This document shows positions 10,360 through 20,843 of a stretch of 46,115 nucleotides of DNA, piece by piece. Below the pieces are notes generated by a model. It worked only from the letters and a program-made list of their open reading frames with translations, had not been told where the DNA came from and did no database searches. Each line of letters opens with the position of its first letter. The stretch's first letter is position 1. The position numbers and the translations under genes are program-made. The stretch is from Coriobacteriales bacterium (lineage in GTDB: Bacteria; Actinomycetota; Coriobacteriia; Coriobacteriales; UMGS124). The stretch is from positions 1 through 46,115 of the forward strand of contig JAFWFL010000012.1 of NCBI GenBank assembly GCA_017515595.1, read 5' to 3'.

Positions 10360-12242
10360 CGAGCATTGCGCAAAGAATCCGCACGCTCTGGGCGGGCGAC
10401 AACTGGGTGAAACCTTTTGTGCTGCACTACCGCAAAGCGCTTGCTCTTGCGGTTGGTTTGGGGTTTGCCGCATCAGCATGTTCAATAGGTCTTATGTTTG
10501 TGGCCGGATATCTCCTAAGCGCGGCGGCCGAGAAACCCTGGTCGATCTTTGAGCTTATGGTGCCGCTTGGCTTGGTACAGGTGTTTGGTATAGCCCGGCC
10601 ATTTTGTGCATATGGGGAGCGTCTGGCACGTCATGATTGGGTGTTACGCATGGGGTCTGCTCTGCGCGCAAAGCTCTTTGGTACCCTTGCGGGCGAAAAC
10701 ATTCTTGAGTTGAAGCTACGGAGTGTGGGCGATGCTCTGGGATTTGCCGCCAGTGATATTACTCATGTACAGGATCTTTATATAAAGAGCCTTTTGCCTC
10801 TTATGATTGGCTTTGTTGTTTGGCTTGCGACGGTTGTGCTTTTGGCGTTTGTTGCTCCTCTGGCCGCACTACTGATAGCGGTATTTATGGGCATTGCGGC
10901 TGTTGGGGCCCCGCTTGTTTCTCTGCTTGTACAGGCAGCGCGGGAAGAGCAGGCAAAGACACTGCGCAAAAAGCTTCTTACCGCTGCTACTGATGATATT
11001 TTGGGTCTCGCAGATTGGATGTACTCGGGCAGGCGCGATGATTTTGTTGCGAATGTGAGCGGGGCTGCCCAAACAATGCACATTCATGATGCAAAAACAC
11101 GCTCATTTGTGCGCCGGCGTGATTTGCTGGTGCAAATTGTGGGCGGGGTGGCCGTTGTTGCCCTTATTTTGTGGGCAAATTCCCAGTTTGCTATGGCAGT
11201 TGCGGCAGTGAGCGAGGCTCAGTTTTCTGCATGGATACCCGGTGCGCACGATTATATTGCGGCTTTTGCAATTGGCGTGTTCCCGCTGGCAGAAGCTTTG
11301 CTGCCCATGGGAAGCGCCGCATCAGGGATAAGCGCTCATCTTGATGCTATTGAAAATCTCAACGGTTTGGAGAACCCAAGAAACGGGGATGTACAAGAAA
11401 CTCAAGCAAAACCCGCACCTTTGCCCAGTCTTTGTCTCGACCATATTACCTATACGTATGCAGGCGCACTGCATCCTGCAATAAACAACCTGAGCGTTAC
11501 TATACCCTTTGGTCAAAAAGTTTGTATTCTGGGTTCAAGCGGTTCGGGAAAATCCACGCTTTTAGGGATCATGCATGGCGATATTGTGCCGGATTATGGC
11601 AAGGCGGAGATTGGCGGTATGACGCTTGCATCTTTGGGTGAACATACCTGCGAATATATAGGTGTTGTCCAGCAAAATCCGTATGTTTTTGACAGTTCTC
11701 TTATAGCCAATTTACGTATTGCGTGCCCTCGGGCGACAGAAGAGCAGTGCTGGCAGGCGCTTGAGCGTGTGGGTTTGCGCGAGATGGCAGAAAGCTTACC
11801 TCATAAGCTTGATACCGTTTTGGGCGAAGGCGGAGTAAGGCTTTCTGGCGGACAACGTCACCGTTTGGCGTTAGCAAGAATCCTCCTTGCAGATACTCCC
11901 ATTGTTTTGCTTGACGAGCCTTTTGCTGCGCTTGACCCAAAGACTGAGGCCGCCGTACTCAAAACGCTTTTTGACGTGCTGAACGGACACACGATTGTCA
12001 TGGTGACACACCATTTGCTTGGTATTGAAAACTTTGACCGTGTGATTTTTATGCAAGAAGGCAGTATAGCTCATGATGGCAGTATTCTGCTTGATAATAA
12101 CCCAGCTGAACTTGTAAAAGCCAGCCCGCGTTACAGGTGTTTGTTATCTTTTGACCGAGGATGGACGCATGCAGATATCTCATGTCCTTTAAAAAAAGAT
12201 GAGACAAACAGCGGGCTGTGTGCGTATGAGAGTCTAATCTAA
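10356..12242 (+). CDS. cydC: CydC-like ABC exporter subunit (thiol reductant exporter)
   Basis: This 628-residue half-transporter has a six-helix membrane domain (about residues 25-310), where YGERLARHDWVLR matches the CydC-type loop. The ATPase domain has Walker A LGSSGSGKST, signature RLSGGQRHR, Walker B IVLLDEPFAALD and H-loop MVTHHLL. It works with CydD to move reductant to the outside for cytochrome bd maturation. The start overlaps the true cydD stop as ATGA, so the two are translationally coupled. The C-terminal 30 residues beyond the ATPase core are unremarkable. The next gene, a small leader-like peptide, starts 34 bp downstream on the same strand. Confidence 0.9.
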   Translation: MTSIAQRIRTLWAGDNWVKPFVLHYRKALALAVGLGFAASACSIGLMFVAGYLLSAAAEKPWSIFELMVPLGLVQVFGIARPFCAYGERLARHDWVLRMGSALRAKLFGTLAGENILELKLRSVGDALGFAASDITHVQDLYIKSLLPLMIGFVVWLATVVLLAFVAPLAALLIAVFMGIAAVGAPLVSLLVQAAREEQAKTLRKKLLTAATDDILGLADWMYSGRRDDFVANVSGAAQTMHIHDAKTRSFVRRRDLLVQIVGGVAVVALILWANSQFAMAVAAVSEAQFSAWIPGAHDYIAAFAIGVFPLAEALLPMGSAASGISAHLDAIENLNGLENPRNGDVQETQAKPAPLPSLCLDHITYTYAGALHPAINNLSVTIPFGQKVCILGSSGSGKSTLLGIMHGDIVPDYGKAEIGGMTLASLGEHTCEYIGVVQQNPYVFDSSLIANLRIACPRATEEQCWQALERVGLREMAESLPHKLDTVLGEGGVRLSGGQRHRLALARILLADTPIVLLDEPFAALDPKTEAAVLKTLFDVLNGHTIVMVTHHLLGIENFDRVIFMQEGSIAHDGSILLDNNPAELVKASPRYRCLLSFDRGWTHADISCPLKKDETNSGLCAYESLI

Positions 12243-12276
12243 ATGAGTAGGGACGGTGCGAAAGAGGAGGCGGGCC

Positions 12277-12531
12277 GTGGATGATCAGGATTTTGAGCAA
12301 AAGATTTCACGGTTGATGAGGCTGGACTTATCTGCCGGAACAGAGGCATTCCGTGACGCTTTATCACAACGTTGTTTTGCCGAGCTGGATGCCAATGATG
12401 AAAGCGAATGTCTGGATGATGATGAGCTCGGCCTTCTCGCGGCAGCAGGCGAGAAAACTTCATGCGATCCAACCCTGATTGAACCATACGATACCTATTC
12501 CGGTAACAGCGACAATAACCGCGTCATATAA
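12277..12531 (+). CDS. Small leader-like protein, candidate exported peptide precursor
   Basis: This 84-residue acidic protein matches no family I can name with certainty. Its C-terminal half has the layout of a peptide leader: CLDDDELGLLAAAG (residues 45-58), resembling the acidic LxxxELxxLAGG leaders of NHLP/Nif11-type precursors, then a 26-residue tail rich in Ser, Thr, Asp and Asn with one Cys. The GTG start follows AGAGGAGG. It lies between cydC and an operon encoding a C39-peptidase exporter able to cut such leaders. Export and cleavage after Gly58 are inferred. Alternatively it could be a small regulator of the adjacent sigma factor. Confidence 0.6.
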   Translation: MDDQDFEQKISRLMRLDLSAGTEAFRDALSQRCFAELDANDESECLDDDELGLLAAAGEKTSCDPTLIEPYDTYSGNSDNNRVI

Positions 12532-12549: not shown

Positions 12550-12581
12550 ACAACCTGCGGTAAATTATTTTAACAGGTTGT
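12550..12581 (+). terminator. Hairpin after the small peptide gene, possible terminator or attenuator
   Basis: ACAACCTG (12550-12557) pairs with CAGGTTGT (12574-12581) around a 16-nt AT-rich loop. A TTGTTTTAG run follows five bases later. It lies 19 bp after the peptide stop and before a candidate promoter, so it could separate peptide transcription from the sigma-factor operon. Confidence 0.42.
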
Positions 12582-12663: not shown

Positions 12664-13230
12664 TTGCGGACGGAGGTCAGCACTACGGACAGCGAGAAGC
12701 AGCAAAGCCGAGCCGGTATTTTGCGATACAGGCATGGCGATGACGCATTTGAACAGGAATTTGAGCGGCTTTATTACGAGAGCTATAAAGCTGTATATAA
12801 TTATGTGCGCGCTCGTATGTCTTGTGATGCTGATGCAGAAGATGTTGTTGCAGAAGCGTACCTCAAGGCTGCTCGTGCATTTTCATCATTTGATCCCGCC
12901 AAGGCAAAATTCGTAACCTGGGTAACAACTATAGCTAAAAACTGCATGATAAGCCATTTTCGCAAAGAGCATCCGGTCGCGGCGCTTGAAGATGTCCCTG
13001 AAGGTGCATTTGCCATAGATGGCGAACAAGGCAGTGCAGATGACATAATGCTTGCAAAGCAGCTGCTTACATGCTTGGATGATGAGGAGCGCGAACTGAT
13101 TGCGCTTAAATACCGCGCCGGCATGCGAAACATTGATATTGCAAAAGCGCTGGATATGAACCCCTCAACCGTTTCGACTAAACTCGCCCGCGCTCTCGAA
13201 AAAATGCGTTGTGTTGCAGAGAGGGATTAG
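12664..13230 (+). CDS. Sigma-70 family (ECF-like) RNA polymerase sigma factor
   Basis: The product has 181-188 residues with a sigma region 2 (FERLYYESYKAVYNYVRARM through AKFVTWVTTIAKNCMI) and a sigma region 4 helix-turn-helix (LDDEERELIALKYRAGM, IAKALDMNPSTVSTKLARAL). Region 3 is absent, as in ECF factors. The start is unclear. A TTG at 12664 has no ribosome site, whereas the strong GGAGGT at 12672-12677 points at an ACG codon (12685) and no ATG, GTG or TTG lies at the right distance. The gene ends 2 bp before the HlyD-like gene and heads a seven-gene run. It probably directs transcription linked to the export system and may be controlled by the STAS/SpoIIE pair at the operon's end. Confidence 0.85.
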   Translation: MRTEVSTTDSEKQQSRAGILRYRHGDDAFEQEFERLYYESYKAVYNYVRARMSCDADAEDVVAEAYLKAARAFSSFDPAKAKFVTWVTTIAKNCMISHFRKEHPVAALEDVPEGAFAIDGEQGSADDIMLAKQLLTCLDDEERELIALKYRAGMRNIDIAKALDMNPSTVSTKLARALEKMRCVAERD

Positions 13231-13232
13231 CA

Positions 13233-13745
13233 ATGTCTGACACATCGCAAAGCATATTCAACAAACGGGCGACAGAAAAACTTCGCAATCCGGATGAACT
13301 TGACAAATACATACGTGTAACCAATCCCAGTGTTTGGGTGGTACTTGCAGCATGCATAGCACTTTTGGCGGGGCTCTTGGTGTGGGGAATATTTGGCGCC
13401 GTAACCACAAGCGTAACAGCTACGGGGGTATTTACAGGCGGACATGCAATGTGCTTTTTAACGGCAGATGATGTTGCGCGGGTAGATGAGGGCGATGTTG
13501 CCATTGTTGACGGTACCAGGATGCGGGTTGCTGAGGTAGCAGCGGTTCCTGTTTCGCGCGAAGAAGCAAGTACTCTTTTGAAAAGCGACTACCTTGTGAG
13601 CTCGCTTGTAAAAGGCGATTGGGCTTACCAGGTGATTTTTGACGGCGATACCTCAGAATTGACGCCGGATATTCCGCTCACGGTACGTATTACAACCGAG
13701 CGTATTACGCCTATAAGCCTGGTGCTGGGAGGCGGCACCAAATGA
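13233..13745 (+). CDS. Short HlyD-like NHLM system secretion protein
   Basis: This 170-residue protein has an N-terminal cytoplasmic stretch (RATEKLRNPDELDKYIRVTNP), one transmembrane helix at about residues 30-52 (VWVVLAACIALLAGLLVWGIFG) and an extracytoplasmic beta-rich part. The ATEKLxxPDELDxxIxVTxPxxW opening is typical of NHLM bacteriocin-system secretion proteins. It is shorter than standard HlyD adaptors and shows no long coiled coil, so it may be a minimal adaptor for a cell without an outer membrane. The start is the ATG at 13233 with AGAGGGA upstream. Its stop overlaps the next start (ATGATG). It probably docks with the C39 exporter. Confidence 0.8.
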   Translation: MSDTSQSIFNKRATEKLRNPDELDKYIRVTNPSVWVVLAACIALLAGLLVWGIFGAVTTSVTATGVFTGGHAMCFLTADDVARVDEGDVAIVDGTRMRVAEVAAVPVSREEASTLLKSDYLVSSLVKGDWAYQVIFDGDTSELTPDIPLTVRITTERITPISLVLGGGTK

Positions 13746-15901
13746 TGGGAAGGATTCCCAAAGTACCCCAGGTCATGCAGATGGAAGCGTTGGAGTGCGG
13801 AGCCGCTTGCCTTACCATGATCTTGGCTTATTATGGACTTTGGGTACCGCTTGAGCAGGTGAGGGCTGATTGCGGTGTATCGCGTGACGGTTCCAAAGCG
13901 TCTAATGTGCTCAAAGCTGCACGCTCCTATGGTTTGTCTGCTAAAGGTATGACTTACTCGGTGGACGCTCTGCGCAGAAAAGCAACATTTCCTTGCATCC
14001 TCTTTTGGAATTTTAACCATTTTGTGGTATTACGCGGATTTGCAGGTAAGTATGCGCTTTTAAATGATCCTGCACGCGGCCAGGTTAAAGTATCCATGGA
14101 TGAGTTTGAAGAAAGCTTTACCGGCATTGCTCTATTATTTGAAAAAACGGACGCTTTTAAAGAGGGCGGAAACAAACCAAATACCCTGAAGTATGCATTT
14201 AAACGTTTGGAAGGTTTGGGTGTTCCTATTGCGTTTGTCATGCTAACCGCTGCTATAACTTCATTTGTAGCGATAATTAACACCTCTTTGGGCCAAGTTT
14301 TTATGGATCGCATTCTTACCGGGAGCGATCCTGACTGGCTTGTTCCGCTTACGGCAATTATGCTGATACTGGCCCTTATAACCGGTGTAGTATCGATTTT
14401 GAACGCGGTGTATTTGGTACGCATACGGGGAAAAATTGCGGTTGTCTCGTCATCACGTTTTATGCACCACTTATTACGTTTGCCAATTACGTTTTATTCT
14501 CAGCGAATGGTAGGAGATCTGCAGCAACGGCAGTCAGTAAATGAGACTATTGCTTTTACGCTTATTGGCAAGCTTGCCCCGGTACTTGTAAATGCAATAA
14601 TGCTTGTATTGTATTTACTTATTATGCTGAACTACAGCGTTCTTCTGACGATTGTGGGTTTACTCACGGTTGTAATCAACGCTCTTCTAGGCCGCTATAT
14701 CTCTAAAAAGCGCATAAACATTGCACGCTCGGGAGCTGCAAATGCAGGTAAGCTCTATGCCACAACCATTAGCGGTATAGAGATGATCGAAACCATACAA
14801 TCTGCAGGTGCCGAGAATGGCTATTTTGGCCGTTGGGCCGGCTATCAAGCTATTGTGAATGAAGCTGATGCACGTACAACACGCTTGAATACGTATTTGG
14901 GTATGGCGCCGCAAATCATGACCCAGATTGCAAATATTGCTGTACTTGTCCTTGGTATTTGGCTTATAGTTGAAGATGCGTTTACTCCCGGTGCATTACT
15001 CGCATTTACCGGTTTTCTTGCCTCATTTATGGCTCCCGTAAACGACATGATCAATCTTGGCCAGACGGTACAAGAGATGCAGACGCAGATGGAACGTGTA
15101 GAAGACGTTTTGCGTTATCCTGCAGACGTAGAAGAAGAGCCGGAGCCCATTATTCATTCCAGCGGGCTTAACCGGGAAAAACTGCGTGGCGAAGTTGATC
15201 TTAAAGGTGTAACCTTTGGCTATTCTCCGCTTGAGCCCCCGCTTATTGAGGATTTTGATTTGCATATTGAACCGGGTCATTGGGTAGCGCTTGTTGGAGG
15301 GTCCGGTTGCGGAAAAAGCACTATCACCAAGCTTATAAGCGGTCTTTATGAACCATGGAAGGGCGAGGTCCGGTTTGACGGAACGTTGCTTCATGATATA
15401 CCCCGTCCCATTCTGCGCGGTTCTTTGGCTGTTGTTGACCAGGATGTCGTAACGTTTGATGATACGGTTTCTGACAATGTTAAGTTGTGGGACAATTCTA
15501 TTCAGGATTACGAGGTTATTCTGGCCTGCCGTGACGCAGGTATTCATGATGCGATTGACGAGCGTCCCGGCGGTTATTCAAGCCGCGTTTTGCCTGGCGG
15601 ACGTAACTATTCAGGCGGACAGCTTCAGCGTCTTGAAATAGCGCGTGTATTGGCGCAGGATCCTACCATTATTGTTTTGGACGAAGCCACAAGCGCTCTT
15701 GACGCTCAAACAGAAGCCGATGTCATACGCCATATTCGTGACCGAGAAATCACATGTATTGTCGTGGCCCATCGCCTGTCTACTATTCGCGATTGTGATG
15801 AGATAATTGTGCTTAAAGACGGTAAGGTAGCCGAGCGCGGTACACATGAAGAACTGTTAAAAGCTGACGGTGCATATGCGGAGTTGGTGCGCAATGACTG
15901 A
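13742..15901 (+). CDS. NHLM-type ABC exporter with C39 peptidase domain
   Basis: This 719-residue exporter has three domains. Residues 8-130 are a C39 cysteine peptidase with a complete catalytic set: Gln13 and Cys19 in QMEALECGAACL, His93 in NFNHFVVLRGF and Asp109 in LLNDPARG. Residues 160-455 are the six-helix membrane domain. Residues 490-715 are the ATPase, with Walker A GGSGCGKST, signature YSGGQLQR, Walker B IIVLDEATSALD and H-loop VAHRLST. Such proteins cut leader peptides after a small-residue pair while exporting the core. The start overlaps the HlyD-like stop; its own stop overlaps the next gene by 8 bp. The intact triad predicts an active peptidase. Confidence 0.95.
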   Translation: MMGRIPKVPQVMQMEALECGAACLTMILAYYGLWVPLEQVRADCGVSRDGSKASNVLKAARSYGLSAKGMTYSVDALRRKATFPCILFWNFNHFVVLRGFAGKYALLNDPARGQVKVSMDEFEESFTGIALLFEKTDAFKEGGNKPNTLKYAFKRLEGLGVPIAFVMLTAAITSFVAIINTSLGQVFMDRILTGSDPDWLVPLTAIMLILALITGVVSILNAVYLVRIRGKIAVVSSSRFMHHLLRLPITFYSQRMVGDLQQRQSVNETIAFTLIGKLAPVLVNAIMLVLYLLIMLNYSVLLTIVGLLTVVINALLGRYISKKRINIARSGAANAGKLYATTISGIEMIETIQSAGAENGYFGRWAGYQAIVNEADARTTRLNTYLGMAPQIMTQIANIAVLVLGIWLIVEDAFTPGALLAFTGFLASFMAPVNDMINLGQTVQEMQTQMERVEDVLRYPADVEEEPEPIIHSSGLNREKLRGEVDLKGVTFGYSPLEPPLIEDFDLHIEPGHWVALVGGSGCGKSTITKLISGLYEPWKGEVRFDGTLLHDIPRPILRGSLAVVDQDVVTFDDTVSDNVKLWDNSIQDYEVILACRDAGIHDAIDERPGGYSSRVLPGGRNYSGGQLQRLEIARVLAQDPTIIVLDEATSALDAQTEADVIRHIRDREITCIVVAHRLSTIRDCDEIIVLKDGKVAERGTHEELLKADGAYAELVRND

Positions 15902-18086
15902 TTGGTTTGAATCACAAATTGAGACGCGTGCCAAACTTGATAAACAACTGACGGAGAAGGCTTATGCCAAGCTTGCGGATAGCGTGTGTGATCCGGGACA
16001 ATCGCTCGATTTTGATACAGACAGCCTAGAAGCAGCTGACGGTGCCGTAAGAGCATGTCTCAAATACAATGGTATAGAAGCCGGTACGGTGCCTGAAGAT
16101 ATTGTTGATCTTAATGAACATTTGGATTGGCTTTGCCGTCCGGCAGGCGTTATGCGGCGTGATGTTCAGTTAAAACGCGGTTGGCAAAAGCAGGCTTTTG
16201 GTGCGATGTTGGGAAAACTCAAGTCGGGCGAGGCAGTGGCTTTACTACCCCAAGGTATACGCGGTTACTACTATATTGATCCGGTAAATAAGTGCAAAGT
16301 TAAGGTAACATCCAAAACGTGTTCAAATATTGAGCAGGAGGCGATACTGTTTTACCGGCCGCTCCCGGCTAAACCGCTCACAATTCGCGATCTTGCTGCG
16401 TTTATTTTTAGGATATTTGACCGCAATGACTACCTTTTGGTTTTGGTTGCGGGACTCATTGTGGCTGCTATTGGCCTTCTTCCTGCGTGGGCTAACCAGG
16501 TTGCTTTTGATGTTGTGGCACCTTCGGGCCAGGCCCGTCTCATTTTACCTATAGCTGCGCTTCTTTTGGGTGTGGCGGTCTCGACAGCGCTCATTGGCGC
16601 CTGCCGTAGCCTTGTGATGGCCCGCGTCTCTGCTAAGCTCGATATTATTACGGAGGCAGCGACATTTGCACGTATACTTGCACTACCGAGTTCCTTTTTT
16701 AAGCAGTATGCGTCAGGCGACCTTGGCAACCGCATATCAAGCGTAACAAGCATAGCGCAAACAATAGTTACTACCTTCCTTGGCTCGGGGCTTTCGGCCT
16801 TCTTATCGCTTATATATATCTTCCAAATTGGAGCATTTGCTCCTGCGCTTGCGTTGCCTGCGCTTGTAATTGTTATCATACAATCGGTGCTTACAATTAT
16901 GGCAACACTTGTCACCATACGGTACGAGAAAGAAAAGATGACAGCATCAGCTAAACTTTCCGGAACGGTAACAGCGCTTTTGAACGGTATACAAAAAATA
17001 AAACTTGCCGGAGCTGAGAACCGGGCTTTTGCAAAATGGGCAGACGGATACGCCGAATACGCAAGGCCGGTTTATAACCGTCCGGTATTTATCAGAGCGC
17101 TGCCTGCAATTGTGGCGCTTGTTGCGCTTTTGGGAAATATTGCTATCTATTATTTCGCAGGTTCAACCGGTGTTTCCATTGCTAATTATATGGCATTCAA
17201 CACGGCATACGGGCAGGTTACAGCCGCTATTATGGCGTTCGCCGGTATAGCAGGTCAAATTGCTCAGATTCAGCCCTTACTTTCTATTGTATCTCCTATC
17301 CTGGAAGCGACTCCCGAGATTGCCGAGGACAAGCCGAGTGTAGAATCGCTTACGGGCGGTATTGAAGTCTCGGGCCTGACATTTAGGTATAATGAAAATG
17401 CCCCCTATATCCTGCAAAATCTATCGTTTAAAATAAATCCCGGCGAATATGTAGCCCTGGTAGGGAAGAGCGGTTGCGGGAAGTCAACCATTCTGCGGCT
17501 TCTTCTGGGTTTTGAGACTCCGGAACGGGGCAGTATATTCTATGGCCCCTACAACATTCAAAAAATAAATCTTCGCTCGCTGCGCAGGCATATTGGTGTA
17601 GTGATGCAGGACGGAAAGCTGTTTATGGGTGATATTTCGAATAATATCACTATTTCGAACCCTTCAGCCACGCTTGATGATGCCTGGCAAGCTGCTGAAT
17701 TGGCCGGTATTGCTGACGACATACGCAAAATGCCCATGGGAATGCAGACGCTTATTACAGAGGGTAGCGGTGGTGTCTCGGGCGGTCAGCGCCAGCGTCT
17801 TATGATTGCGCGGGCAGTGTGCGGTAAGCGTCGTATTCTTATGTTTGATGAGGCCACAAGTGCTCTTGACAACCTCACACAAAAGCATGTGGCAGAATCA
17901 CTCGAAAACCTCAAATGTACGCGTATTGTGGTAGCACATCGCCTCTCAACGGTGCGCCATTGTGACCGTATTTTGGTAATAGATAACGGAAACATTGCAG
18001 AAGAGGGTACATACGAGGAACTTATTGCAAAGAACGGAGTATTTGCAGAGCTTGTAAAGCGGCAGCGTTTGGATAAGGAAGGATAG
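15894..18086 (+). CDS. NHLM-type second ABC transporter protein
   Basis: This 730-residue partner exporter lacks a C39 peptidase. Residues 1-165 form a soluble N-terminal region typical of the second NHLM ABC protein. Membrane helices span about 170-455. The ATPase domain has Walker A GKSGCGKST, signature VSGGQRQR, Walker B ILMFDEATSALD and H-loop VAHRLST. It probably forms a heterodimer or parallel pump with the preceding gene, with which it overlaps by 8 bp. The ATG at 15894 is preferred to an upstream in-frame start because GGAG lies close upstream and the overlap fits the operon style. The STAS gene follows 2 bp after the stop. Confidence 0.92.
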   Translation: MTDWFESQIETRAKLDKQLTEKAYAKLADSVCDPGQSLDFDTDSLEAADGAVRACLKYNGIEAGTVPEDIVDLNEHLDWLCRPAGVMRRDVQLKRGWQKQAFGAMLGKLKSGEAVALLPQGIRGYYYIDPVNKCKVKVTSKTCSNIEQEAILFYRPLPAKPLTIRDLAAFIFRIFDRNDYLLVLVAGLIVAAIGLLPAWANQVAFDVVAPSGQARLILPIAALLLGVAVSTALIGACRSLVMARVSAKLDIITEAATFARILALPSSFFKQYASGDLGNRISSVTSIAQTIVTTFLGSGLSAFLSLIYIFQIGAFAPALALPALVIVIIQSVLTIMATLVTIRYEKEKMTASAKLSGTVTALLNGIQKIKLAGAENRAFAKWADGYAEYARPVYNRPVFIRALPAIVALVALLGNIAIYYFAGSTGVSIANYMAFNTAYGQVTAAIMAFAGIAGQIAQIQPLLSIVSPILEATPEIAEDKPSVESLTGGIEVSGLTFRYNENAPYILQNLSFKINPGEYVALVGKSGCGKSTILRLLLGFETPERGSIFYGPYNIQKINLRSLRRHIGVVMQDGKLFMGDISNNITISNPSATLDDAWQAAELAGIADDIRKMPMGMQTLITEGSGGVSGGQRQRLMIARAVCGKRRILMFDEATSALDNLTQKHVAESLENLKCTRIVVAHRLSTVRHCDRILVIDNGNIAEEGTYEELIAKNGVFAELVKRQRLDKEG

Positions 18087-18088
18087 TA

Positions 18089-18391
18089 ATGAAAATCAAA
18101 ACAAGTGTAGACGGCACCAAAGCTATTATCGAGATAGAGGGCAAGCTTACAGTCAACACATCACCAGATTTAACTGCTGCGGTAGAGCAGCTTCCAGATG
18201 ACGTATGCGATATTGACGTCGATTTTACCAAGGTTGACTACATTGCTTCTGCAGGTTTGCGCGTGCTTGTAGCTACCGATAAACTCGCTGTAAAGCGGGG
18301 TGGACGCATGCGCATACTGCACCCATGCAGTGAGGTAAGGGATGTGCTTGAGATGACAGGCCTTTCTGAAGTTTTTACTATTGAGCGGTAA
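18089..18391 (+). CDS. STAS-domain anti-sigma factor antagonist
   Basis: This 100-residue single STAS domain resembles SpoIIAA/RsbV. The motif YIASAGLRVL places Ser54 two residues before Gly, where the phosphorylated serine of RsbV lies. In partner switching, the unphosphorylated form binds the anti-sigma kinase and frees sigma. Here a sigma factor lies upstream and a SpoIIE-type phosphatase follows 25 bp downstream, but no anti-sigma kinase is encoded in the window. The start has AAGGAAGG upstream and follows the ABC stop by 2 bp. Confidence 0.9.
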   Translation: MKIKTSVDGTKAIIEIEGKLTVNTSPDLTAAVEQLPDDVCDIDVDFTKVDYIASAGLRVLVATDKLAVKRGGRMRILHPCSEVRDVLEMTGLSEVFTIER

Positions 18392-18416: not shown

Positions 18417-20810
18417 ATGCCTCCGGGCGTTAAACGATTCCCTAAAAAATCGAGGTTAATAAGCTGGGGTGGGACACTTGCCAAAATGGATCGCACTCCG
18501 CGATTGATGATTGCTGTTGTGCTGGCGGTCGCCTGCATTTCTCTTACATTTACCCAGCTGGGTTTTTTAGCTGTTACATTGCCGGGCGGTACTGTTGGAT
18601 ATGTAGTTGTTTTACTGGGAGTTGTAGCGCTCGGGGCACTTTTACTGGGCACGTTTTTTGGTACGGCATTGGGTCTTTTAGCCGGTGGCGTGCTCTTGTT
18701 GCATGCGCATTATTTACCGCTTGACCACTATGAGCTTTCATTTGTAACTCCCGTAACATCTATTGTTATGCTTGGGTTTGCAGGCTTGCTTTTGGGCGTG
18801 TTGTTTGCGTTTGTCCTGCGCAACAAGCCTTCACGGGGCAGATTTACAGTCTATATAACTATTGTTTGTATTATTGTGGCAGCACTTTATAGTCTTGCAT
18901 TTGTTTCGAATGTGTACTCTTTGCTTGTTATGAGCCTCGCCGAAAGTATAAATGAAGGGGTTGATGAGGCCTATGTACGGGAACTGGCAGCATCAACCGC
19001 TCTACGGTTGGGCAATATTGGTGTTCAGATAATTCTAACTGCCGCATTTATGGCTTTACTTTGTTTTGTTGGTAATTATTTGGCCCAAAAAAGATTGGAA
19101 CATAGCAGCTCTCTGGGATTGCGGGCTTTGTTTGGTTTGCGGCTTTCTGTTGTGGTGTTGCTTACGTTTATGATGATGACAGCCGTGAGTTATGTTGTTG
19201 TTACCTGGGATGAGCTTTGGGATAATGCGGAACAAATGCGTGACGAGGTTACCTATTTATGTAACCAGCTCGAAGACAACAGTAAACGCAGCAAAGCATT
19301 CGCAGATTTTACCGAGCGATCAGGGTTCGATTATAACGATTATACGTATGAACTCTGGTATGATACCGTTAGGATTCTTTCAGATGACAACTTGCTTTCA
19401 GGTTATTCCGTAGAAGAAGACGGAGATGTCATTGTGTTGGTTGGCTCTCTCATAGATAAGAGCAACAACAGCCGTTACAGCGATTTGTATTTTTCTGCAG
19501 ATTATTTTTCGTCCGGCATGCGCGAGGCAATCGAGAAAAGTATTGATACCGGTAAAATGCAGCGTTTTGTGTATGATGAAGTAAAGCTGTACCTTGAAAA
19601 TCCCAATCTCAACACTGCTGAAATGACCCAGCCGTATGTTGCCTATCTTTTGGCCAAACGTATGGGGTTTGAGAATTACGAAGGCGATAAATTTACGCAA
19701 ACCGTGATCATCATCCGGTCTTCGAGTATGGTATTTGAGAAGCGCGCGTTCATAATGACATGGGAAATTCTCGGATTCCTTGTGCTCTTGCTGGCTGTAT
19801 TTTTCATTGTGTTTCAGCTGATCAGTAAGGTGATTGCGAGCTATATTGACGAGACAAACGGTGTGCTTGCGCGCATTACCTCGGGCGATCTTGATGCGCG
19901 TGTGGAGGTACATGATACCCGCGAATTTGATTCGCTTTCAAACGGTATTAACACAACGGTAGATGCCCTCAAAGGCTGGATTGCCGAGGCCGAGACGCGC
20001 ATGGATGCCGAGCTGGCTACAGCTCGTGCTATCCAGGAAGCGACACTCCCCAGAGATTTTCCGCCGTTCCCCGACATTTGCAGATTTGATATTTTTGCGA
20101 GTATGGAACCGGCACGTGAGGTGGGCGGGGACTTTTATGACTTCTTCCTCATTGGAGAAGACTGTGATTCCCTGAAGGGCAAAGTAGGCTTTGTTGTGGC
20201 TGATGTAAGCGGTAAAGGTATTCCTGCCGCATTGTTTATGATGAAGGCAAAAGCGCTCATACGCGATTATGTTGACAACGGGGTAGAGCTTGGCGAAGCG
20301 GTATCTGCTGCGAATAAACAACTTTGCGACGGCAATAACGAGGCCATGTTTGTAACCGCATGGATAGGTGTTCTCGACTATGCTACAGGGCATGTGGATT
20401 ATGTAAACGCCGGTCATAACCCGCCGCTTCTCTGGCAGCGTGAAGGAGGCTGGCGCTGGTTGAAGCAGAGATCAGGTCCCATGTTGGGCTTGTATGACAT
20501 ATCCTACCGCACGTATTCTGTGGACTGCATTGCCGGCGATACGTTTTTGCTCTATACAGATGGAGTAACTGAGGCCTTTGATGTGAACGAGAAGCTCTAT
20601 GGCGAGGATCGCCTGCTGGTAGTGGCCGAGAAGGGTTACCGTTTGCATCCGGAAGATTTGCTTGAGTCTGTTCGTGCGGATGTTGCCGCTTATACAGAAG
20701 AAGCCGAGCAGTCTGATGACATTACAATATTGGCTCTCGAGGTAGGAGTACCGCCCGAGTTGACAAAAATTGAACGCCCACCAATCAAGATAAAAGGTAA
20801 CAGGGGGTAA
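18417..20810 (+). CDS. Membrane-bound SpoIIE-type PP2C serine phosphatase with HAMP domain
   Basis: The protein has 797 residues. Residues 30-240 hold about six transmembrane helices. Residues 260-440 form an extracytoplasmic sensor region bounded by helices near 243 and 450. A HAMP-like segment at 470-525 (ITSGDLDARVEVHDTREFDSL) leads to the PP2C domain at about 545-780. Metal and catalytic motifs are EVGGDFYD, VVADVSGKGIPAALF, YVNAGHNPPLL, LLYTDGVTEAF and QSDDITILAL. It probably dephosphorylates the neighbouring STAS protein in response to an outside signal and so switches the sigma factor. The last residues, GNRG and the stop, are encoded inside a 21-bp palindromic repeat, suggesting the repeat reshaped the C-terminus. 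Confidence 0.93.
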   Translation: MPPGVKRFPKKSRLISWGGTLAKMDRTPRLMIAVVLAVACISLTFTQLGFLAVTLPGGTVGYVVVLLGVVALGALLLGTFFGTALGLLAGGVLLLHAHYLPLDHYELSFVTPVTSIVMLGFAGLLLGVLFAFVLRNKPSRGRFTVYITIVCIIVAALYSLAFVSNVYSLLVMSLAESINEGVDEAYVRELAASTALRLGNIGVQIILTAAFMALLCFVGNYLAQKRLEHSSSLGLRALFGLRLSVVVLLTFMMMTAVSYVVVTWDELWDNAEQMRDEVTYLCNQLEDNSKRSKAFADFTERSGFDYNDYTYELWYDTVRILSDDNLLSGYSVEEDGDVIVLVGSLIDKSNNSRYSDLYFSADYFSSGMREAIEKSIDTGKMQRFVYDEVKLYLENPNLNTAEMTQPYVAYLLAKRMGFENYEGDKFTQTVIIIRSSSMVFEKRAFIMTWEILGFLVLLLAVFFIVFQLISKVIASYIDETNGVLARITSGDLDARVEVHDTREFDSLSNGINTTVDALKGWIAEAETRMDAELATARAIQEATLPRDFPPFPDICRFDIFASMEPAREVGGDFYDFFLIGEDCDSLKGKVGFVVADVSGKGIPAALFMMKAKALIRDYVDNGVELGEAVSAANKQLCDGNNEAMFVTAWIGVLDYATGHVDYVNAGHNPPLLWQREGGWRWLKQRSGPMLGLYDISYRTYSVDCIAGDTFLLYTDGVTEAFDVNEKLYGEDRLLVVAEKGYRLHPEDLLESVRADVAAYTEEAEQSDDITILALEVGVPPELTKIERPPIKIKGNRG

Positions 20811-20843
20811 CAGGGATATGTCCCCTGTTACCCCCTGTTACCT
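20795..20843. repeat. Perfect 21-bp inverted repeat spanning the ends of two convergent genes
   Basis: Positions 20795-20815 are the exact reverse complement of 20823-20843, with a 7-nt loop. The arms are tandem GGTAACAGG/CCTGTTACC units; a further near-copy of the CAGGGATATGTC...CTGTTAC half follows at 20847-20868. The repeat contains the stop of the phosphatase gene (20808-20810) and of the minus-strand membrane gene (20838-20840). It can act as a bidirectional terminator but looks like an inserted REP-like element; the GTCCCCTGTT part is shared with 136-190. Confidence 0.87.

Follow-up and report, generated by a model that had tools for sequence, protein, structure and literature searches.

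Several described systems resemble parts of the locus analysed here. The streptococcal peptides ComC/CSP and BlpC/BIP carry leaders with Leu at -12, Glu at -8, Leu at -7 and a hydrophobic residue at -4 and leave the cell through the C39 exporters ComAB and BlpAB (PMC7595303, PMC6363468); their cores are short, linear and hypervariable, and a set of other double-glycine peptides is co-regulated with them (PMC7595303). Work on LahT150 and ComA assigned recognition to these four positions together with a pair of small residues at -2/-1 (PMC6363468), and in Synechococcus the motif was disabled by changing GG to AA (PMC4997328). The NHLP and Nif11 precursors (TIGR03793, TIGR03798) combine a long leader and a hypervariable core with a three-part exporter cluster (TIGR03794/03796/03797), and Nif11 precursors have been reported beside an NHLM exporter in Eggerthella lenta (PMC2887384, PMC4289311). 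Control of a secreted peptide system by a pathway-specific ECF sigma factor is exemplified by MibX/MibW of the autoinduced lantibiotic microbisporicin, which has its own promoter consensus and a feed-forward arrangement (PMC4973701). We describe here a small gene in a 46,115-nucleotide stretch of a Coriobacteriales genome (the window), which appears to specify a new variant of the double-glycine secreted peptides, newly recognised with an ECF-like promoter. The literature searched, outside of which most subscription journals lie, yielded no description of this system and no peptide signalling system for these gut and rumen Actinobacteria.

Read directly from the window, the gene (12277-12531, + strand) is an 84-codon open reading frame with a GTG start that lies 6 nt after a GAGGAGG ribosome-binding site (12264-12270, + strand). 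It begins 34 bases past cydC, and its translation runs through CLDDDELGLLAAAG, followed by EKTSC, to the C-terminus NNRVI, with Gly as residue 58. No Pfam or NCBIfam model matched the peptide at E ≤ 0.1, including TIGR03793, TIGR03795, TIGR03798 and PF07862. The following genes lie on the same strand in the order ECF sigma factor, HlyD-like protein, NHLM C39 exporter, second exporter subunit, STAS protein and SpoIIE/PP2C phosphatase. Among 400 genomes of the class, a first search matched 30, of which 24 held convincing homologues, and profile searches of two families, 140 genomes each, matched 37 and 25 genomes, some of them weakly. After removal of duplicates 62 distinct peptides remained, all from one order of Coriobacteriia, and the phylum sample held no true homologue outside that order. 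Named records with the peptide comprise Eggerthellaceae, Denitrobacterium and Coriobacteriaceae MAGs, some of them of ruminant origin. As these homologues share the same kind of leader, the reading frame is genuine and not a chance one.

The peptide divides into two parts with different evolutionary behavior. The family alignment, pN/pS ratios and a structure model delimit a leader of residues 1-57 (12277-12447, + strand) with three predicted helices, at residues 3-15, 18-39 and 48-57; from residue 58 the model is of low confidence and mostly unstructured. Over all pairs of the 62 sequences the mean identity is 0.37 for the leader and 0.17 for the tail, with 0.13 for shuffled tails, and the tail was the less conserved part in all 247 pairs whose leaders are at least 50% identical. 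In close pairs gaps are confined to the tails, and pooled pN/pS rises from 0.18 in the leader to 0.51 in the tail. The low identity and the pN/pS value of the tail together imply that it evolves fast yet stays constrained. The original prediction had named a conserved leader with a variable tail as the mark of a precursor, and equal conservation along the whole protein as evidence against one. The relatives display the former pattern. The tails range from 9 to 30 residues, are hypervariable in length and sequence, and are mostly acidic, with a net charge between -4 and 0 in 59 of the 62 peptides. Cys occurs in eight tails and never twice in one; the window peptide has one Cys in its tail and two in its leader (Cys 33 and 45). 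The motif [ND]P is present in 26 tails, compared with 15.2 expected from shuffled tails. In otherwise unalignable tails (L036-L162) this Asn/Asp-Pro frequently precedes Phe, Leu, Ile or Trp.

The boundary between the two parts coincides with a C39-type recognition segment, LDDDELGLLAAA (12412-12447, + strand; L-12, E-8, L-7, L-4, A-2, A-1). Residues L46, E50, L51 and L54, which are conserved in the family, occupy positions -12, -8, -7 and -4 only for a cut after Ala57. After AAA, 55 of 62 relatives have Gly and the others S, E, Q, K or M. Because the recognition register points to Ala57 and this residue is better conserved than Gly58, we prefer a cut between LAAA and G to one after LAAAG, and the site first proposed, after Gly58, probably lies one residue too far along. 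Since the motif places the cut before Gly58, the predicted core, GEKTSCDPTLIEPYDTYSGNSDNNRVI (12448-12528, + strand), which is predicted to be disordered, has 27 residues instead of the 26 first counted; its single Cys was correctly described. In place of Gly-Gly, Gly-Ala or Gly-Ser, positions -2/-1 hold Ala-Ala throughout the family, or Ala-Gly in the shifted reading, and Ala-Ala is unusual for C39 peptidases. With the Gly-Gly pattern absent and the NHLP and Nif11 models failing to match, the peptide should not be filed under either family. A divergent subgroup reads LKCDFPARESFREALL...DLEMLAAA with E, K, Q or M and then Gly as the next residues (L073, L152, L153, L154, L161, L162).

The candidate exporter stands beside the peptide gene, as the original prediction held, but not as its immediate neighbour, since it starts 1.2 kb downstream on the same strand. 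Upstream of it is a gene for a short HlyD-like membrane protein (13233-13745, + strand), which corresponds to the N-terminal part of NHLM HlyD only (TIGR03794 positions 1-64, E 5e-12). The exporter itself (13742-15901, + strand) is an NHLM-type peptidase/permease/ATPase with a C39 domain (PF03412; TIGR03796 at 917 bits, cut-off 853.3) in which the catalytic residues Cys19, His93 and Asp109 are all intact. A second NHLM subunit without a peptidase (15870-18086, + strand) scores 704.7 bits against TIGR03797, just under the cut-off of 709.4. In a tree of 46 C39 exporters, all from peptide-bearing genomes, the peptide-linked exporters form one clade (support 100/99) with the divergent L073 as sole exception. 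This clade is separate from the exporters that adjoin Nif11 genes, among them the second one of the window genome (contig C119). One member of the divergent LKCDFPARESFREALL subgroup lies near a long-branch C39 exporter. A few positions among the C39 specificity residues differ between the clades, and none could be linked to Ala versus Gly.

The association of peptide and exporter was also evaluated at the level of genomes. When the window exporter was searched against the 400 genomes, no score fell between 1030 and 981 bits, and 35 genomes lay above this interval. Of these, 32 carry the peptide, compared with two carriers seen among the other 365; the latter number is a lower bound, as families outside the two that were profile-searched had only the window-leader search. 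The clade exporter was found without a detected peptide in G139 (a complete genome), G379 and G388. Of the two carriers among the 365, G392 is a fragmented assembly, and in G194 the exporter gene runs off the end of its contig. Genomes whose peptide gene is distant from the exporter still hold an exporter of the clade at another place. Occurrence away from C39 exporters had been proposed as an argument against a precursor; by genome, the peptide instead tracks one exporter clade. The possibility that this locus really serves a Nif11 or NHLP precursor was considered and rejected, as the Nif11 genes of this genome sit on other contigs, one of them beside the exporter of the other clade on C119. 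That second locus (L066) holds an NHLM exporter with a Nif11 precursor, a STAS protein, a PP2C and a separate HATPase_c_2 protein.

Downstream of the peptide gene is an ECF sigma factor gene (12664-13230, + strand; TIGR02937, PF04542, PF08281). Its reading frame opens with TTG at 12664, and an ACG at 12685 has GGAGGT 7 nt upstream. About 15-18 window-like sigma homologues carry an ACG and its ribosome site ~24-28 codons ahead of a conserved LYxESY anchor, more distant homologues have ATG or GTG at this place, and the frames of L037, L056, L138 and L142 contain no in-frame ATG, GTG or TTG before the anchor. The sequence comparison indicates that the start is probably ACG 12685 and not TTG 12664. 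Between the peptide and sigma genes is an imperfect hairpin, ACAACCTG...CAGGTTGT (12550-12581, + strand), a possible attenuator, whose folding is no better than that of shuffled sequence (z -0.73). About 45-65 bases before the peptide start we identified a promoter consensus, TGRGACR-N15/16-CGTATAA. Counting sites with 11 or more of the 13 consensus bases, it precedes 80% of 59 peptide genes and appears in 3.4% of shuffled sequences. In the window the -35 element GAGACA (12201-12206, + strand) lies inside the 3' end of cydC and is followed after N16 by the -10 element CGTATGA (12223-12229, + strand). We take the layout to resemble that of ECF promoters, and the neighbouring sigma factor is most likely the one that uses it.

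For 41 of the 62 peptide copies the distance to an ECF sigma gene is at most 1.5 kb, many of the remaining copies being on cut contigs. This gene is the most constant neighbour of the peptide, even without a nearby exporter, and no anti-sigma gene is visible adjacent to the peptide or sigma gene in the window locus. These observations would also suit a small protein that stays in the cytoplasm as a regulator of the sigma factor, either an anti-sigma or a co-factor, with LAAAG as a mere helix end. Such a role is improbable given that conservation ends exactly at the C39-type motif, that the length of the tail is free to vary, that gene-bearing genomes also hold the matching exporter clade, and that the promoter is common to export substrates. 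Taken together, we put the probability that this is a precursor gene for a peptide exported by the C39 route at roughly 85%.

The promoter is shared with other secreted peptides in relatives of the window genome. Across 20 peptide-bearing genomes there are 59 exact matches to RRGACR-N16-CGTATRA, compared with 15 for the reversed pattern. The downstream genes include eight peptides of this family, 17 small Nif11-like or other double-glycine-leader proteins, two of them degenerate (an example is L220, MKYEDLS...ELTDEELEGVAGG followed by WGDC), three radical-SAM/SPASM enzymes (L201, L221, L232), of which L221 comes nearest to peptide maturase families, and three small zinc-ribbon proteins with the N-terminus MCFRPS. 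Scanning the loci with a matrix placed the same promoter ahead of double-glycine peptides near L036, L040, L050 and L072. In genomes with a single exporter of this kind, the peptide and the double-glycine peptides presumably share it. The window genome, scanned as a whole, has the exact pattern once, upstream of the peptide gene, and its Nif11 genes lack the promoter, so the regulon is proposed from the relatives. Members of the MCFRPS zinc-ribbon family (~60-65 residues; L227, L235, L238, L062), which is under this promoter, end in N-x-(R/K)-I-(L/I), and the window core ends in NNRVI. Some short Gly-Gly peptides under the promoter (L040 near 15994, L036 near 10044) have cores like INPTAAIYQFVKRYLTKHFGN, with a bacteriocin-like look.

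This shared control bears on the function of the core. One alternative is that it is exported as an effector, antimicrobial or otherwise, and that the sigma factor merely co-regulates all secreted peptides. The promoter type common to the 17 double-glycine peptides agrees with this, variable cores are typical of bacteriocins too, and microbisporicin, an effector, works with the ECF sigma factor MibX (PMC4973701). We consider an effector unlikely, although it is the strongest of the competing explanations. The cores are short, mostly acidic and Cys-poor, no recurrent immunity-like gene adjoins the peptide, and the motif of the peptide is not the Gly-Gly found in the co-regulated ones. Tails of 9-30 residues that are mostly negative and never hold two Cys make these cores unlike pore-forming bacteriocins or thioether RiPPs, and they do not have the cationic or amphiphilic core, usually of more than 25 residues, of class II bacteriocins. 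A second alternative, modification of the core before export by a maturase encoded elsewhere in the genome, would make the peptide a RiPP. It could draw on the radical-SAM/SPASM enzymes under the same promoter in relatives and on the radical SAM gene near the peptide in L051 and L054, the only such loci, but modification enzymes are absent from the window locus and most peptide loci, and the 62 tails have no modifiable-residue pattern in common, which leaves it very improbable. A DUF7005 protein (PF22541) is encoded near the peptide gene at two loci, L047 and L054.

The remaining genes of the locus are regulatory. A STAS anti-sigma-factor antagonist (18089-18391, + strand), matched by Pfam and NCBIfam models, is followed by a membrane SpoIIE/PP2C phosphatase with a HAMP domain and a divergent extracytoplasmic domain (18417-20810, + strand; Pfam). 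Both recur as neighbours of the peptide in many loci, and L033, L050 and L057 have a HisKA_7TM-type histidine kinase and a response regulator near the peptide. Exporter, sensor (PP2C/STAS or 7TM kinase/regulator) and ECF sigma factor thus occur in one locus, the combination by which a peptide-pheromone locus is recognised. The extracytoplasmic domain of the PP2C shows 25% identity, compared with 63% for the phosphatase domain, and such high divergence is expected of a sensor. It has no structural match of its own, the matches being to the phosphatase domain and, for the membrane part, to ECF transporter S components. Tail similarity correlates with that of the extracytoplasmic domain at 0.58 and with those of other domains at 0.47 and 0.61, values from eight sequences that are inseparable from phylogeny. 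Relatives of the PP2C are fused to a C-terminal HATPase-like kinase domain that the window protein lacks, and a perfect 21-nt inverted repeat lies at the end of its gene (20795-20843). The phosphatase switch may be incomplete in the window genome, which encodes several HATPase_c_2 proteins elsewhere.

We favor the following model. The helical leader (residues 1-57) would dock on the C39 domain of the downstream NHLM-type exporter, which would cut after LAAA (Ala57) and export an acidic linear core of ~27 residues. The peptide gene would be transcribed from the ECF-type promoter, most likely by the adjacent sigma factor. Outside the cell the core would most likely act as an autoinducer (pheromone), a proposal made because the cores are short, acidic and linear, there is usually one precursor per exporter, and the sigma factor is common to other secreted peptides, an arrangement like that of BlpC and the Blp bacteriocins (PMC7595303). 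The adjacent membrane PP2C/STAS switch, or in some relatives the sensor kinase/response regulator pair, may sense the core and thereby free the sigma factor for more peptide and, in relatives, for double-glycine peptides and radical-SAM maturases. The original prediction leaned towards a signal rather than a toxin. Tail length, acidity and the sigma, phosphatase and kinase neighbours favour this without proving it, and we judge a signalling role for the secreted core somewhat better than even. The wider proposal is tentative and, as a whole, doubtful: an undescribed class of cell-cell signalling in Coriobacteriia in which a linear, C39-exported peptide with an AAA motif acts by way of a phosphatase-kinase receptor of the RsbU/RsbW type, gates an ECF sigma factor whose translation begins at a conserved ACG, and so switches on a dispersed double-glycine/radical-SAM regulon. 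If it holds, one small gene and one promoter motif would give a handle on when double-glycine peptides are produced and exported. This would concern dozens of unstudied peptides whose genes are scattered and unannotated in these genomes. The locus would also offer a naturally occurring C39 exporter whose specificity may be for a pair other than Gly-Gly, and a tie between peptide export and ECF/PP2C control that is directly testable in a laboratory host.

Compared with ComC and BlpC, the window family has the same recognition register, a C39 exporter, a short linear hypervariable core and a co-regulated set of double-glycine peptides. It differs in having Ala-Ala for Gly-Gly, a leader of 57 residues rather than ~20, an NHLM-type exporter pair, and an ECF sigma factor with PP2C/STAS rather than only a two-component system. 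The long leader, hypervariable core and exporter cluster are those of NHLP/Nif11 precursors, but the window peptide matches neither HMM, its leader is different and lacks VAGG, the tails are not rich in Cys, Gly or Ser, and the family has its own sigma factor and promoter. The pathway-specific sigma factor and promoter consensus are similar to those of microbisporicin. There, however, the lantibiotic promoter is driven by MibR and lacks the ECF motif, which the peptide gene bears here, and the membrane anti-sigma factor is replaced here by PP2C/STAS or a kinase/regulator pair. The phosphatase is most similar to the RsbU-RsbW partner switch (e.g. Rv1364c), as its relatives are PP2C-HATPase fusions and the best fold match of its model is the RsbU-RsbW structure 3ke6. 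In the window, however, the kinase part has been lost and the PP2C pairs with an ECF sigma factor rather than one of the sigma-B/F type.
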